64,000 nt of DNA from Bacilli bacterium (GTDB lineage: Bacteria > Bacillota_I > Bacilli_A > RFN20 > CAG-288), in contig JALCRV010000001.1 of assembly GCA_022652945.1 (NCBI GenBank), forward strand, positions 257,384-321,383, given 5' to 3'. Positions 18,535 to 27,764 of this stretch are shown in pieces. Made by a program: the position numbers and the translations under genes. Every line of letters starts with the position of its first letter. Position 1 is the stretch's first letter. The notes below the pieces were generated by a model, which was not told where the DNA came from, did no database searches, and was given only the letters and a program-made list of their open reading frames with translations.

Positions 18535-19131
18535 CTAGAATTCCATCTTGACGTCGGCTCTCTTCGCCTCTTCCGCTTCGAAGAATTCAGATTTCTCAAA
18601 GCGATAGTGATTGGCAATGATCGAGGACGGGAAGACGAGAAGCAAAGAGTTGTACTCTTTGACATTCGAATTATAAATACGACGAGAAGCCTGCAGATGC
18701 TCTTCAGCATCGCGGGAGGAAGCCTGAAGCTCAAGGAATAAAGTATTGGCTTTCAGATCCGGATACTTTTCAAAGATGATATCGATGTTCTTAGCAGCCT
18801 GATCAAGTTTGGCATTGATAGCCGAGAGATCCTTGACCGAAGTGCCAGCCGGAATCCCTGAACGGAGTCCGATTACATCGGATAACGTCTCTTTTTCATG
18901 CTTAGCATAACCTTTGGTGATATCGAACATCTTGGTGAGGAGATCGAATCTCTTTTCCAAGGCGATATCGATGCCGGATTTGGCATCTTCAATGGAAACC
19001 TGCAGACGGCGGAACATATTGTAAACACGAATCCACCAGCTGACGATGATGATAACTAAAAGAACAACAACAGCGATAACGACAATCAAGGCGATCATTC
19101 CGCCCGAGAGACCTTCTAATACTGGTAACAT
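18535..19131 (-). CDS. lemA: LemA family membrane protein
   Basis: LemA proteins have one N-terminal membrane helix and a long cytosolic helical bundle; their function is not established. Here residues 11-33 are strongly hydrophobic (ALIVVIAVVVLLVIIIVSWW), followed by the family pattern RVYNMFRRLQVSIEDAKSGI and KRFDLLTKMFDITKGYAKHE. The length of 198 is typical. It lies 17 bases downstream of the DUF3137 gene; the two families are commonly neighbours, so a shared membrane role is likely. Confidence 0.9.
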   Translation of the reverse strand: MLPVLEGLSGGMIALIVVIAVVVLLVIIIVSWWIRVYNMFRRLQVSIEDAKSGIDIALEKRFDLLTKMFDITKGYAKHEKETLSDVIGLRSGIPAGTSVKDLSAINAKLDQAAKNIDIIFEKYPDLKANTLFLELQASSRDAEEHLQASRRIYNSNVKEYNSLLLVFPSSIIANHYRFEKSEFFEAEEAKRADVKMEF

Positions 19132-19148
19132 GTTTCTTTACCCCCTAT

Positions 19149-20342
19149 TTATTTATCAGCCACAGACTCGATTTCTTCTCCCGCTTTTTGTACTACATCC
19201 TTACTAGAGGTTGTAGCCATGGCTGTAACAGCCTGTTCAGCGGAAGCGGAATCTAAGCCTGATATTTTCTCCGACTCGCCTTCGATCTTATTCTCAACCT
19301 GGGAAGCGACATCATCGCCGGCCTGCTCTCTTAAAGCGGCGGCTTTAGCGGCTTCCTGATAAGCTTTCTCGACCGCTTTCTTTCCGAAAGAGTCATCGAG
19401 ATTAAACATTTCTACGAACCATTGGAACGGGAGAATTTCACTTACAAGTTTCTTGATCAGCTCTTCATTATCCTTGATAGAAAGCGCATAATCGAAGCGG
19501 TTTTTTGCCCCGTTAATGGCTATGATTAATCTATCAGATTGAATACAGAAAATCAACGTTCCAGGAACCCTGGCTTTTATTTCTTTAAAGGCTTCAATAA
19601 ACTGCGGAGTGATGACATAAAACGCTGCTTCTTTATCGTTGGCATAGACGTTAAATTGCTTATTGAAAACGACATCTTCGAAGTCGATTCTGGTCGAATG
19701 AGCGAAGTTCCTTGACCAACCCGCTCCGTTCTCCTCTTCCCTGATTTCCAAAGAGCCCGGGAACTCTTTATTGAACTGATAGACCGCAATAAGCCCGTTA
19801 AAATAATAGACCGTTGAGGAGTGTCCTTTCGAGTCGGTGGTTTGGTTTCCGGAGACCACATTAGCCACCGAGAAACGGACATCTTTATAAGAGCCGTTAA
19901 TCTGTCCATCGGTCTTATAAATATTACCGAACTCAAACAGATTAAGATTCTCTAAGAATTGTCTGGCCCAGCCTTGACTGGGCACGTAAGAAGCATCATC
20001 TCCATAAACCAACTTAATCAAACCGGGGACCACATCATTCTGGAACTTCTTTAAAGCGTTAGCCCTCGCTCCGGCGTACGCCCCGATTCCAAGGAAGATA
20101 GTAACCATAGAAGCGGCGACCAGAATCATGAAATTATGGCCTTCGCTAAAAATGAACATCAAAATCCCAATCAGAAAGCCCACCGGGAATATCAGCCATC
20201 CAAACTTTTTAAAATGAGCGTACTGCGCTCTGGATTCGTTAGCTAATTCACTGATTTTTTTCTTTTGCTCTTCCGTGATGGAAGTCATCATCCTGGTCAG
20301 AAACAAGTTCTGATCGGCATCTTCCCCCTTGAATTTAGCCAT
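19149..20342 (-). CDS. DUF3137 membrane protein
   Basis: This 397-residue protein fits the DUF3137 family, usually encoded next to lemA. Two hydrophobic segments (about residues 50-67 and 72-90) follow a charged N-terminal helix. A mixed alpha/beta region follows, with the pattern GSYKDVRFSVANVV and, later, FNKQFNVYANDKEAAFYVITPQF. The last 60 or so residues are Ala/Glu/Lys-rich and probably disordered. GGGGGA precedes the ATG. The biochemical function is unknown. Confidence 0.8.
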   Translation of the reverse strand: MAKFKGEDADQNLFLTRMMTSITEEQKKKISELANESRAQYAHFKKFGWLIFPVGFLIGILMFIFSEGHNFMILVAASMVTIFLGIGAYAGARANALKKFQNDVVPGLIKLVYGDDASYVPSQGWARQFLENLNLFEFGNIYKTDGQINGSYKDVRFSVANVVSGNQTTDSKGHSSTVYYFNGLIAVYQFNKEFPGSLEIREEENGAGWSRNFAHSTRIDFEDVVFNKQFNVYANDKEAAFYVITPQFIEAFKEIKARVPGTLIFCIQSDRLIIAINGAKNRFDYALSIKDNEELIKKLVSEILPFQWFVEMFNLDDSFGKKAVEKAYQEAAKAAALREQAGDDVASQVENKIEGESEKISGLDSASAEQAVTAMATTSSKDVVQKAGEEIESVADK

Positions 20343-21419: not shown

Positions 21420-21665
21420 ATGAAAGATGATAAAGTCGACTGGGGGCTGTTCTTCATCCTCCTCTTCCTCGGATGGCTAGGCATCGATAAGTTCTATAAG
21501 CTTAAAGGCCCGGGCTGGAAACTATTCTGCATTAAGTTTTTAGCTTCCTGCATCGGCATCGGCGAATTATGGAATCTGCTCGATATCGTCATGTGCCTCG
21601 CTCGCTTATATCGCGCGGATCCGAGAGAATATCTGGATCTGTTAGAAAAGAAGCAGTCATATTAA
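21420..21665 (+). CDS. Small TM2-domain membrane protein
   Basis: This 81-residue protein fits the TM2 family: two hydrophobic segments joined by a short polar turn with a conserved Asp and the pattern FLGWLGIDKFYKLK, followed by a second helix ending near LLDIVMCLARLY. TM2 proteins are of poorly defined function. AAGGAG precedes the ATG and a strong terminator follows, so it is probably expressed alone or with the upstream reductase gene. Confidence 0.75.
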   Translation: MKDDKVDWGLFFILLFLGWLGIDKFYKLKGPGWKLFCIKFLASCIGIGELWNLLDIVMCLARLYRADPREYLDLLEKKQSY

Positions 21666-21672
21666 TTAAAAG

Positions 21673-21697
21673 AGCCAGCTGAGCGCTGGCTTTTTTC
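21673..21697 (+). terminator. Terminator after the TM2 gene
   Basis: AGCCAGC (21673-21679) pairs with GCTGGCT (21685-21691) around TGAGC, followed by TTTTTC. The T-tract overlaps the stop region of the convergent minus-strand gene at 21696. Confidence 0.88.
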
Positions 21698-24600
21698 ATC
21701 TCTTCAGAGCTAACCTAGCTCCATCGGTCTTGATCTGATCAGACCCGAGGAGCAGATTTTCAGCTTTCTGGAATAGCAGGCGGAAATCGACATCTTTTTC
21801 ATCGGTCCCGACGACTCCAGCTAACTGCCCTACTAAGACTTCACGGTTTAAATAAGTAAAGCGGGAGAGGAAAGCTAAAATGCCTAAAGCGATTTCTTCC
21901 GGAGCGATATTTCGAATCGGACGAGTCTCTTTTTTTGACCTCATCATCTTCGGATAACTGTTCTTTTCTTCCGGATGATAAAGCGGGAAGGAATAAGAGA
22001 TATCTTTTAAGGTCTTAAAGTATTCAGCTTTTTTCTTTTCTTCATAAGAAAGTTTCTCATCCGAATCACCGATCTTTTGAATACCCTCCACTACGACTTT
22101 CACATCGCGCCAGCAGGACATCACGGAAAGATCCGGATAGACCAAGAAAGGCAAAGCGTAAAGATTCACCGTCTTAATCCCGTAATTCAGATAAAGGAAA
22201 GCTGGTAAGGCATAAGATTGGGCGTAAGAAAGCGGATCATCTTGATCAAAGAACCTCAAAGCGAAACGTTCCCCTTCTTTTTCAAAGTAATAAGGAATTA
22301 AGATGCCTGGAGCGATATCTTTAAATTTCTCTAAGGCGATACCTTGCTTTTGCAAGGCCAAGTTAACACTCTTTTGGAACGAAGACGGGAAATGGCTTAA
22401 ATAGGCGTAACTCTTCATATCTTCATCCAGAGAGAGATCCAAGCTCGGGACCTGCTTAGCAAGCGGGAAACTATCCCCGAGGATAATCACCCTTTTCGCC
22501 AGCATTAAGGAAGAAAATAAATCCATCAAGGAATCGTCTTCCCTTAGATCCACAATCGCCAGATCGAATTTATAAGGTTGGAGATATTCGCATTGTTTTA
22601 AAGAAGCCACATGCAAGGGATAGATATGGAAGAAAACATCCCCGGCGGTCGTCAAAGCCTCTTTAGCGGAAAGCATCCTTTGAGAGTGGTAACGCTCCTT
22701 TAAAGCGCTGATCGCTTGGCGGAAAGAAGGACGGCCAAACAAGACAGATTTAATAGCATCGAAGGATTTGATGATGTCTTTACTGAGCAATTCCCCGTTA
22801 GCTTCTAACAGGCGGTACATCTCAAAAAGATCAGCGGATTCGGCTTGGATTGCTTCGTTGCCTTTTTCTTCCTCGAAAACTTTTAACAACATATGCTTAT
22901 AAACGGAAGAAAGGAAATCCTCGTTGAAGGTAGCTAAGGTACCATTCTCTTTTTCCACTTCATCTAAAGCGCTTCTTAGTTCTTTAGAGGAAGCATCTGC
23001 TTTCTTGGAGAATTCTAAATATGATTCGAACAATTCCTTCGAACCAGCTATCTTCTCAGCCAGCCTCTTTCTGATTTCTACAAATGAGCTCTGGGAGAAA
23101 TCAAACTTATCTTCATTAAAGTATTCTCGGTATTTATCTAAATCATGTTCAAGAAGCGTCCTTCCCTCCATTAAAGCCGGATAAAAGGTGCTCTTATACT
23201 TATCGGAGAAGGATTGATCTTTAAAGATCTCTTCGGTGAAAGGATTGGAAAAATCCAGATGATCATAAAGTTTCTTATGTCGGTTATACATCTGGATAAA
23301 GTCGTACGCTTTGTTAACACCTAATAAACCATCCAAGGTATCAGCGGCCTTTCCGAAGACTCTTTCAAGTTTAGGACGAATCGCTAAGATTTTCTTATGG
23401 TTATCTTGATATTTATCAACGAAGACAATCAAAGTCTTATACGCTCTTCTGAACGGAGTGATCTTGATGACTTCTTTCAGTTCTTTCTTTAATTCTCTTT
23501 CTCTTTTATGATCCTTGAAGTCTTCGATGATCTTGTCGAAATCCATGTTCCAGATCAAAGGACGGCAAAGAACATCTAAAGACAAAGTCAAAGAAGCTTC
23601 GGTTCGATAATACCCTTCTGCTAAAGTGATACTATCGATAATATCCTGGCTGAAATCAGCGGAAAAGTAACTTAACGGGAAGCCATCATATTTTGAATAA
23701 ATGGAGAAGATCTTTACCGCTTCGTCATAATCCTTTAAGGAATTGAAGTCAGACCAACGGGACGTACGGACACGGGAATCCTCGATAGCCTTTTCAAATT
23801 TAGCGATATCGGAAACCATGTTCTTTAAGAAACTGATTATTTCTTCATACTGGTCTTTCTTAACTAAGGAGTTCAGGCCGTAAAAAGGATGCTTAGTAAA
23901 AGGATTGGCGGAATACCAAGGATTCAACTTAAGAAAAGCGATAAAATCCCCATCATCAAGCCAATTATCAAAATCGTAATCGGAAAAAGCGGAGAAATCA
24001 TAAGTTTTTTTGCTTAATAAAGCGGCATCGTGGAGATTATTATAAATATCAAAATCATTCTCCCCGGTCGGAATCGTGATGGTCTTTAATCTTATATCAT
24101 CACTTCTCTGTCTGTCCTCCGCTTCCCTTAAGTTTTCTTTAGCGATGATTAAGGAAGCATCGAGAAGATACTGAGGATGATTCTTCGCTTTCTCAAGCAA
24201 AGTGAACAAAGCAACCCCCGGTTCTGTAATATCCTGGTAAGGCATAAAGGCATCATAATAATCATTAATCAGTTTACTGTTCCATTCGTTTTCGCTCTTT
24301 TTATCTGGGCAAACGATAAGGATGGAGTTCTTATGAAGGATATATTCTTCAATCGCGCTTTTTAAGAAAGACGAATTCATCGGATCGAGTTGATCGATCT
24401 TCATCACCGGATAAGAAGCTAAAGTATTAAGCCCATCAACGATATATGAGGGATGTTCCTTCTTAGAAGCGTATGAGGTTGTCTTCTCATTGGGTAAACG
24501 CTCTTCAAAGCAGCGGAACAAAGGATCGGAAGCCATACTCGGAAAATAACTGACTAAGGCTTCCAGTCTGATTTCTTTCATGACATCTAGTTCCATAAGG

Positions 24601-25259
24601 TGAAGAGAATCATCAGCGGCGAAAGAATACGGAGTGACTTTAGCCGTGATTTGCCGACTTAATTCCTGCGAATCAAACCCCTGGCCTTGATAGGAGATAT
24701 CTAGGTTATATTCCTGTTTCAGTTTCCAAATAAGCGGAGTGTTGAATAAAGGAGAGTTATAGTTCAATCTCATCGTATACTCTCCCTCGCTCTCTCCAAT
24801 CTCAACTTTAAAGAAAACCAAAGGAGCAATCAGAATGCTCTTTTTACCTTTTTCCGCATAAAAGAGATTACCGAAAGATAAATAAATATCATCCTTGCCT
24901 TTAAAAGACTCCAAGGTCTGATCTTGAATCAAAGGCAGGGAGCAGGAAACCAGACGATCAAGTCCGAGCAAGCTCTTATCGAGCAAAGGTTCGATCTCGT
25001 CTTTGGAGTACGTGTCTTTTTTAATGATTTCTTTTCCGTTCAGAACAATCTTTTCGGCCGTCAGAGAAATGGACTTATCAAAAAAGGAAGTGAACTTAAA
25101 TGGCCTGCCGAAAGAAAAATACTCGAAAAAGGCATTCAAATCAGCGGAAATAAGTTCCAAGGAAGCCACATTGCTTAAAGCCGTATTCAATAGAGGAGAG
25201 GAAGATAATTCCTTCCTGAACTCTTCGATAGCTTCCTTATTCCCGACCTTTTTTTCCAT
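21696..25259 (-). CDS. Large DUF4011-helicase-like protein with degenerate ATPase and nuclease motifs
   Basis: I read this 1187-residue protein as a decayed relative of the DUF4011/SF1-helicase/DUF3320 family. Residues 125-190 match the DUF4011 pattern: DDIYLSFGNLFYAE, ILIAPLVFFKVE, then NTPLIWKLKQEYNLDI. At residues 290-330, where relatives have GPPGTGKS, the text runs from SSFLKSAIEEYILHK straight to SILIVCPDKKSENEW, so Walker A is missing. A helical middle follows. FDLAIVDLRED (about 898-908) and LGDSFPLAKQ (about 927-936) replace the DEAS Walker B and GDxxQLPP motifs. The second RecA-like domain appears absent. SSFQKSVNLALQKQGIAL (about 959) resembles the start of the C-terminal nuclease domain, whose acidic residues are not evident. 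The last 70 residues resemble the DUF3320 winged helix. The frame is intact, so it looks selected rather than broken. The family match is by eye. Confidence 0.55.
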   Translation of the reverse strand: MEKKVGNKEAIEEFRKELSSSPLLNTALSNVASLELISADLNAFFEYFSFGRPFKFTSFFDKSISLTAEKIVLNGKEIIKKDTYSKDEIEPLLDKSLLGLDRLVSCSLPLIQDQTLESFKGKDDIYLSFGNLFYAEKGKKSILIAPLVFFKVEIGESEGEYTMRLNYNSPLFNTPLIWKLKQEYNLDISYQGQGFDSQELSRQITAKVTPYSFAADDSLHLMELDVMKEIRLEALVSYFPSMASDPLFRCFEERLPNEKTTSYASKKEHPSYIVDGLNTLASYPVMKIDQLDPMNSSFLKSAIEEYILHKNSILIVCPDKKSENEWNSKLINDYYDAFMPYQDITEPGVALFTLLEKAKNHPQYLLDASLIIAKENLREAEDRQRSDDIRLKTITIPTGENDFDIYNNLHDAALLSKKTYDFSAFSDYDFDNWLDDGDFIAFLKLNPWYSANPFTKHPFYGLNSLVKKDQYEEIISFLKNMVSDIAKFEKAIEDSRVRTSRWSDFNSLKDYDEAVKIFSIYSKYDGFPLSYFSADFSQDIIDSITLAEGYYRTEASLTLSLDVLCRPLIWNMDFDKIIEDFKDHKRERELKKELKEVIKITPFRRAYKTLIVFVDKYQDNHKKILAIRPKLERVFGKAADTLDGLLGVNKAYDFIQMYNRHKKLYDHLDFSNPFTEEIFKDQSFSDKYKSTFYPALMEGRTLLEHDLDKYREYFNEDKFDFSQSSFVEIRKRLAEKIAGSKELFESYLEFSKKADASSKELRSALDEVEKENGTLATFNEDFLSSVYKHMLLKVFEEEKGNEAIQAESADLFEMYRLLEANGELLSKDIIKSFDAIKSVLFGRPSFRQAISALKERYHSQRMLSAKEALTTAGDVFFHIYPLHVASLKQCEYLQPYKFDLAIVDLREDDSLMDLFSSLMLAKRVIILGDSFPLAKQVPSLDLSLDEDMKSYAYLSHFPSSFQKSVNLALQKQGIALEKFKDIAPGILIPYYFEKEGERFALRFFDQDDPLSYAQSYALPAFLYLNYGIKTVNLYALPFLVYPDLSVMSCWRDVKVVVEGIQKIGDSDEKLSYEEKKKAEYFKTLKDISYSFPLYHPEEKNSYPKMMRSKKETRPIRNIAPEEIALGILAFLSRFTYLNREVLVGQLAGVVGTDEKDVDFRLLFQKAENLLLGSDQIKTDGARLALKR

Positions 25260-26534: not shown

Positions 26535-27359
26535 TTACTTATGAGACTCGCCGTTAATGATGATCTTCCCGTATAGAGCGGTAACTGAATTAGTCTCGAC
26601 GTGACCCGAAGCAATCTTTACATTGCCGGTAACTGTCGAGAGACGCAACTTTTTAATTTCGGCGTAGTCGATATCGGTATCACCGGAAACCGTAGAAATC
26701 TTCATCTCGTCAGCTGTCACGCTCTTTAAAAACAGATGACCGGAGACATTAGATATTTTTAAAGTAGCAGCGCGGACATCATCGGTGGTTAACTTACCGG
26801 AAACGACGCTGTAATTGAATTCCTTGCTCTTAATATAAGGAATATTAACGTTAGCGGAAGCGTTGCTGATTCTAAAAGAATCGATATCCTCTCCCGAGGG
26901 AAGGATAATCTTTAAAGTATAAGCGTGCATATTAGCTATAAATTTCGCCAGCGGAATAAACTCCAATTTGAAGAAATGCGCATCTTGAGTAATTCGGTAA
27001 TTATCCGGATCCGCCCCGTTAAAATCAACGTAAGGCTTATCGACATTTCCATAGGAGAATTCGACATTATCAGCGACTAAAGAGAAGATGAACGTCCAAG
27101 GCTTTTTCGTATCCTTAAAATCGTTCCCGTTCTTTTCTTCGATGCTCATTTCCGCCTTAGCCTTATCTTGTTCCGCCTTTAAAGCATCGACAATCGCTTT
27201 CGGTTGGCCGAATTTCTCGATGGCTTCTTCTTCGCTGAAGCCGGCTTCTTTTGCTAATTCGAAACGGGATTCGTATTTCTTGGCGATTTCATCCGCCCCT
27301 TCGATTCCCTGATTCTTCAACTCACCTTTTAAGGCATTTAAATATTCATCTTTTGTCAT
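26535..27359 (-). CDS. DUF1700/DUF4097-type protein
   Basis: The N-terminal 60 residues form a helical module like that of DUF1700 proteins (TKDEYLNALKGELKNQGIEG and EEEAIEKFGQPKAIVDAL). From about residue 95 on, the protein is made of short repeated strands such as RISNASANVNIP, KISNVSGHLFLKS and LSTVTGNVKIASG, the beta-helix pattern of DUF4097 proteins. There is no signal peptide or membrane segment, so it is probably cytosolic. It lies 15 bases after the DUF2089 gene, a partnership also seen around Bacillus yvlB-like loci. A role in envelope stress response is possible but unproven. Confidence 0.8.
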   Translation of the reverse strand: MTKDEYLNALKGELKNQGIEGADEIAKKYESRFELAKEAGFSEEEAIEKFGQPKAIVDALKAEQDKAKAEMSIEEKNGNDFKDTKKPWTFIFSLVADNVEFSYGNVDKPYVDFNGADPDNYRITQDAHFFKLEFIPLAKFIANMHAYTLKIILPSGEDIDSFRISNASANVNIPYIKSKEFNYSVVSGKLTTDDVRAATLKISNVSGHLFLKSVTADEMKISTVSGDTDIDYAEIKKLRLSTVTGNVKIASGHVETNSVTALYGKIIINGESHK

Positions 27360-27374
27360 AACTTTCTCTCCCTT

Positions 27375-27764
27375 CTATTTAATGCTTTCGCCGATGCGCG
27401 CTAAGCGCTTCTCGGCTTCATCAAAATCAATATGCCCCGCTTTCAGACTCGCGAGGATTTCTTCTTTTGTCTCTTCCTGCTGCAGCGGAATGGTGCTAGC
27501 GGTGAGCCCTAAAGCGGCGACGACTTCTTCGATCATCTTCTTTACGGTCGGATAGGAAATATTCAGATCCTTTTCGACCAGTTTGATGTTGCCGCCATCT
27601 TTTAAAAAGACTTCAGCGAACTTCATCTGCGGCTCTGTTAAACGATCGAAATCAGAAAGGATAAAATCACCTTTAATAACCGTTCCGCATTTAGGGCACT
27701 TAAGCTCGCTGACATGAAGTTCTCCTTCGCAGACCGGGCAACGTCCCAAGACTTGATTTGCCAT
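27375..27764 (-). CDS. DUF2089 zinc-ribbon/HTH protein
   Basis: The 129-residue protein starts with a zinc ribbon (CPVCEGELHVSELKCPKCG) and continues with a sigma-like helix-turn-helix: LTEPQMKFAEVFLKDGGNIK and DLNISYPTVKKMIEEVVAAL. This is the DUF2089 family, a presumed DNA-binding regulator. AGGAGG precedes the ATG and a strong promoter lies immediately upstream. It probably controls its own operon with the DUF4097 protein; no operator could be identified. Confidence 0.85.
   Translation of the reverse strand: MANQVLGRCPVCEGELHVSELKCPKCGTVIKGDFILSDFDRLTEPQMKFAEVFLKDGGNIKLVEKDLNISYPTVKKMIEEVVAALGLTASTIPLQQEETKEEILASLKAGHIDFDEAEKRLARIGESIK

Follow-up and report, generated by a model that had tools for sequence, protein, structure and literature searches.

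A protein of 1187 amino acids encoded in the window (the whole stretch of 64,000 nucleotides of a Bacilli contig that was analyzed) is, with high confidence, a conserved pseudo-helicase-nuclease. Profile comparisons identify it as a relative of the DUF4011 helicase-nucleases (PDC-S37 and Hhe in PADLOC, ProA in NCBIfam), structure models retain the folds of RecA domain 1 and of the nuclease core, and the gene is vertically inherited under purifying selection. Catalysis by this protein appears very unlikely. Few large bacterial pseudoenzymes have lost both the ATPase and the nuclease yet kept the folds, RecC and AddB being the best known, and the few papers found on DUF4011 describe no dead form. 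The case resembles a natural experiment, in which the ancestral type is a patchy candidate anti-phage enzyme and the dead form is near-universal and vertical in one bacterial family.

The original prediction described a giant DUF4011-type pseudo-helicase with its motifs erased and its frame intact, and this description held: the open reading frame (21696-25259, reverse strand) runs through 1187 codons uninterrupted by stops, and a profile of the family aligns with seven intact DUF4011 helicases of the same bacterial family at an hhalign E value of 3.7e-16. The source genome (2.09 Mb, 20 contigs, 92.7% complete) carries a single copy. Relatives of the same genus that bear names are MAGs of uncultured Bacilli, including Candidatus Scatoplasma merdavium, and the record names suggest that the carriers are gut or rumen bacteria.

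Table 1. Features of the pseudo-helicase-nuclease locus, in window positions.
Feature	Positions	Strand	Basis
Pseudo-helicase-nuclease gene, 1187 aa	21699..25259	-	ORF call and translation; stop codon 21696-21698
DUF4011 domain, residues 21-191	24687..25199	-	Pfam PF13195, 26.4 bits; hhalign E 2.6e-9 against intact relatives
RecA domain 1 remnant, residues ~280-350	24210..24422	-	hhalign E 1.6e-5 and predicted model
Helical insert, residues ~429-880	22620..23975	-	hhalign E 2.6e-5; block conservation; model
Strands of Walker B and motif III, catalytic residues lost (residues 895-931)	22467..22577	-	hhalign E 5e-4; columns across relatives
Predicted PD-(D/E)XK nuclease fold (Vsr-like), catalytic acids lost (residues 936-1062)	22074..22454	-	hhalign E 0.0011; own model and structure matches
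Predicted C-terminal winged helix, DUF3320-like, residues 1111-1187	21699..21929	-	hhalign E 9e-6; RPA2 winged helix matched at Z 9.4 (68 residues)
TM2-type small membrane protein, convergent neighbor	21420..21662	+	Neighborhood comparison and profile searches

Domain architecture and lost motifs

Aligned segment by segment with hhalign, the protein is collinear with its intact relatives, running from DUF4011 through RecA domain 1, the insert, Walker B and the nuclease to the winged helix (Table 1, where segment E values are the better of those from two family profiles). The DUF4011 match lies above the Pfam cut-off of 22.2 bits and spans residues 22-180, a block that the original prediction had recognized but confined to residues ~125-190. 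For the nuclease, the E value comes from a separate alignment with ten intact nucleases over 95 columns. The PADLOC PDC-S37 profile matches the protein weakly (43 bits) and NCBIfam ProA (NF058533) scores 48.5 bits, below its cut-off of 1500; intact full-length DUF4011 helicases of the same family or class reach 970-1130 bits for PDC-S37 and 400-460 bits for Hhe. Searched against PDB sequences, the family profile matched only de novo proteins, at an E value of 0.2.

The RecA domain 1 remnant consists, in order, of a strand, the place of the lost P-loop (around IDQLDPMNSS, residues 288-297), a helix and the strand ILIVCPDKK, and its match to intact relatives covers the part after the P-loop. As originally predicted, the stretch around IDQLDPMNSS, which aligns opposite GPPGTGKS of intact helicases, contains no GxxxxGK[ST]. 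Further along, FDLAIVDLREDDSLMDLFSSLMLAKRVIILGDSF aligns with FDTVIFDEASQIFPWDALTSIYRGKQAIVVGDPK of the intact helicases, and GDSFPLAK occupies the place of motif III (GDxxQLPP), just where LGDSFPLAKQ had been proposed to replace it. For Walker B the proposal was partly right: DLRE stands at the place of DEAS and the catalytic glutamate is lost, but the source copy retains the Walker B aspartate (IVDLRE). RecA domain 2 is missing as well, as had been suspected, since the aligned segments skip from column 1325 to column 1661 of the intact profile (~335 columns), no hhalign segment maps there, and the protein has no Pfam match to AAA_12. The expectation of a nuclease-like start without clear catalytic acids was borne out in the source copy, where DLAI reads IPYY and GIESDG reads ALRFFD, placing P at the aspartate of DLAI and R at the glutamate of IESDG. 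Among the relatives of the protein, Walker A is absent from every copy, and column comparison indicates that the Walker B glutamate and the nuclease acids are lost throughout; these shared losses are ancestral to the family rather than an accident of the source copy.

Altered nuclease acids (VMIEG or IMLDG for IECDG) are also seen in DUF4011 helicases that have the ATPase motifs (L047:5558-11338, L084:4440-10235, L085:5618-11410, L086:4917-10697, L105:7333-11760 and L106:6880-11379), so a seemingly intact motor is commonly paired with a lost nuclease. In one further genome (G017, L091:6860-12305) an intact-type DUF4011 helicase-nuclease is spread over two ORFs, one containing Walker A and the other DEAS and IECDG, and a third ORF carrying DEAS and GDLKQLP comes after them; the pair may result from gene breakage or represent a genuine division of the protein.

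The AlphaFold2 model of the whole protein, built from 20 sequences, has a pLDDT of 83, and the RecA fold sought in it was recovered over domain 1. The best 22 structure matches for this domain are all to UPF1, IGHMBP2, Sen1/senataxin, Dna2 or ZNFX1 (Z 11.9-14.3), and superposition on the UPF1/IGHMBP2/Sen1 group gives Z ~14 with an rmsd of 4.5-7 over 240-320 residues. A mostly helical model may score as high as Z 14 simply because its arrangement of helices is a common one, which makes Z alone weak here, and we count these values because they agree with the sequence map. RecD2 also aligned to the model (2.9 A over 129 residues). A Foldseek search with the full model gave no E value under 0.001 and was dominated by coiled-coil proteins, its long helices confusing the search, and for this reason we turned to a second structure comparison and modeled the nuclease part separately. 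The nuclease part modeled by itself (pLDDT 89) matches mostly PD-(D/E)XK enzymes, among them I-Bth0305I, Vsr and Holliday junction resolvases, at Z 5-7.5. A survey of HEPN proteins has DUF3320 overlapping a wHTH and counts MTES_1575 among the Vsr-type nucleases (PMC3710099); the DUF3320-like end foreseen in the original prediction is likewise modeled as a winged helix.

With PDC-S37, Hhe and ProA (PDLC05009, PDLC02194; NF058533) the protein thus has in common, in the same order, DUF4011, the topology of RecA domain 1 including its long helical insert, a Vsr-like nuclease fold and a C-terminal winged helix, but unlike them it lacks Walker A, DEAS, RecA domain 2 and the nuclease acids. It shares a predicted domain 1A/1B fold with the SF1B helicases UPF1, IGHMBP2 and Sen1, and differs from these in the absence of catalytic motifs and domain 2 and in its additional long insert. 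RecC and AddB are similar in that an SF1 helicase fold without motifs is retained for a non-motor task (PMC4824097); they are, however, UvrD-like, contain two RecA folds and act in complex with RecB or AddA, whereas the present protein has a single, UPF1-like RecA fold and AddAB is encoded separately. Utp25 of the SSU processome is also a pseudohelicase kept as part of a larger machine, but it belongs to another helicase group and to eukaryotic ribosome assembly (PMC9539457).

Distribution and selection

Among the 23 genomes from a single GTDB family, 21 carry the pseudo-helicase gene, whereas none of the 256 other genomes of the same order does. A class-wide sample of 395 genomes added three distant matches, all of which keep GPPGSGKS and are intact relatives. 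Since a profile of 20 relatives was too variable for scanning genome contigs, contigs were searched with a five-member genus profile, which matched only the four known relatives in the genus. Intact-type DUF4011 helicases with Walker A are present in ~10 genomes of the family and are patchily distributed. The apparent split of one copy (G004) falls at a stretch of N in its contig sequence.

In the closest pair of copies (G005 and G012), dN is 0.114 and dS 1.58, a dN/dS of ~0.07 that is approximate with dS near saturation; other pairs are saturated or undefined. This pair aligns without gaps over 984 codons, and dN is 0.08-0.14 in every segment, well below dS even in the dead domains. The gene evolves faster than its neighbors, with 42% identity to the copy in G003 against 64-66% for Mfd, Sua5 and RpiB. 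In the gene tree, genera g1 and g2 are each monophyletic, and the members of each genus stay together with the fewest possible changes. Purifying selection and vertical inheritance agree with the original view of a selected, non-enzymatic role rather than a dying gene, and the suggested check by dN/dS across related genomes gave no sign of neutral evolution.

Genomic setting and the TM2-type neighbor

The loci lie among core genes: in genus g1 beside Sua5 and RpiB, with TilS and Mfd further out in two genomes, and in genus g2 near desulfoferrodoxin, a metallo-beta-lactamase fold protein and MetRS. The compared neighborhoods contain no recurring defense or mobile genes and no recurrently linked helicase or nuclease gene. 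AddA and AddB are both encoded elsewhere in the source genome, where an ORF a few genes from addAB (L101:14992-16227, starting MDKTVAELFAGVGGFRVG) looks by eye like a C5 DNA methyltransferase.

The sole constant neighbor is a small TM2-type protein (~82 residues, motif GWxGxDKF), a divergent form that scores 17.7 and 24.9 bits against Pfam PF05154, below the cut-off of 27.9. Its gene is convergent with the pseudo-helicase gene in 13 of 15 informative loci across three genera whose other flanks differ, an orientation that gives the two genes no common transcript. A profile of the TM2-type protein matches 20 of 23 genomes of the family and 0 of 256 others of the order, although this profile was made from the clade and TM2 proteins outside the family may fall under its threshold. 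Both family genomes that lack the pseudo-helicase also lack the TM2-type protein (hypergeometric p 3/253 = 0.012 within the family, uncorrected for phylogeny). The two genes are therefore co-distributed, through few independent events in one clade. In G009 the joint loss is perhaps a single deletion, a third linked gene being missing too, and an empty-site search for the metallo-beta-lactamase-fold neighbor in G007 and G009 did not find it. In G011 both genes are kept, on different contigs. A LemA and DUF3137 gene pair (18538-20342, reverse strand) lies beside the TM2 region of the window and, likewise, by the TM2 gene in G004 (L033).

Possible roles

Conservation is highest in the helical insert, which has a mean pair identity of 23-28% over residues 450-800 (24-28% within 500-750) and many conserved aromatic columns, compared with 13-23% in the RecA and nuclease parts. 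Conserved basic columns are few across the family, and most copies in genus g2 have lost the winged helix. Nearly all members carry a negative net charge; since intact relatives and the other proteins of the window are acidic too, this is weak evidence. The comparatively high conservation of the insert, the greater variability of the RecA and nuclease parts and the loss of the winged helix in most of g2 together favor a protein-binding adaptor, which we regard, at about even confidence, as the best explanation, bearing in mind that the winged helix leaves nucleic-acid binding a possibility. A DUF4011-type helicase-nuclease, combining a UPF1-like superfamily 1 helicase with a Vsr-like nuclease, would have joined the core chromosomal genes of a single gut Bacilli family, losing its second RecA domain along with the residues for ATPase and nuclease activity and keeping the domain 1 fold, the insert and the nuclease core. 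Its present role may be that of a structural adaptor without catalysis, in which a protein partner would be bound chiefly through conserved contacts of the insert and the dead helicase and nuclease domains would serve as platforms. The TM2-type neighbor would be the first candidate partner and would put the pseudo-helicase at the membrane; this pairing is possible but tentative, and the wider proposal of a new two-part, membrane-bound, ATP-independent machine, with a core function drawn from a defense-type enzyme in one gut Bacilli family, is somewhat more doubtful still. If the adaptor reading is right, a defense-type enzyme has been recruited into core biology, and the helical insert stands out as an element with a function of its own.

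Among the roles originally put forward (sensor, scaffold or regulator), the scaffold thus fits best. A non-catalytic nucleic-acid scanner, complexed with an active helicase or nuclease, would follow the precedent of AddB and RecC, whose inactivated SF1 helicase domains have lost most or all motifs and recognize Chi, a specific ssDNA sequence (PMC4824097), and the pseudo-nuclease and winged helix are kept here as well. We nevertheless consider it improbable: RecC and AddB retain both RecA folds and domain 2 is missing here, the presence of AddA and AddB leaves no vacant seat, no helicase or nuclease gene is recurrently linked, and basic columns and the winged helix are poorly kept. The nucleic-acid sensor fares similarly, the RecA and nuclease parts that would face nucleic acid being less conserved than the insert. 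That the protein is itself a missing AddB was rejected, AddB being present in the source genome. A phage-defense component, acting as a sensor or adaptor derived from a defense helicase, would account for the nearest profiles being defense candidates and for the high scores of intact relatives against them, but its near-universal, vertical presence at core positions makes this reading slightly less probable again. Intact DUF4011 helicases are patchy in the same genomes, unlike the pseudo-form, and the anti-phage context of intact relatives raised in the original prediction does not carry over to a gene inherited with its genera.

Control of an active DUF4011 paralogue, for instance as a dominant-negative partner, is conceivable in the family genomes that also hold an intact-type helicase, but the search for such a paralogue, recommended from the outset, found no second DUF4011 protein, intact or otherwise, in the source genome at its 92.7% completeness; because of this we think such control quite unlikely, and across genomes the pseudo-form does not track the intact form. 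Very unlikely indeed is an unrelated helical protein that resembles helicases by chance: the Foldseek result would suit it, but the Pfam cut-off is passed, the family-level alignment is strong, the segments are collinear, and the fold matches are UPF1-like and PD-(D/E)XK. Least probable is a decaying gene left open by chance, to which the complete loss of catalytic motifs and the fast evolution might have pointed; it is refuted for the family as a whole by the low dN/dS, by full-length frames despite saturated synonymous divergence, and by presence in nearly all genomes of the family.

Elsewhere in the window, a Toastrack DUF4097/HAAS protein (26538-27764, reverse strand) adjoins a DUF2089 zinc-ribbon HTH protein.
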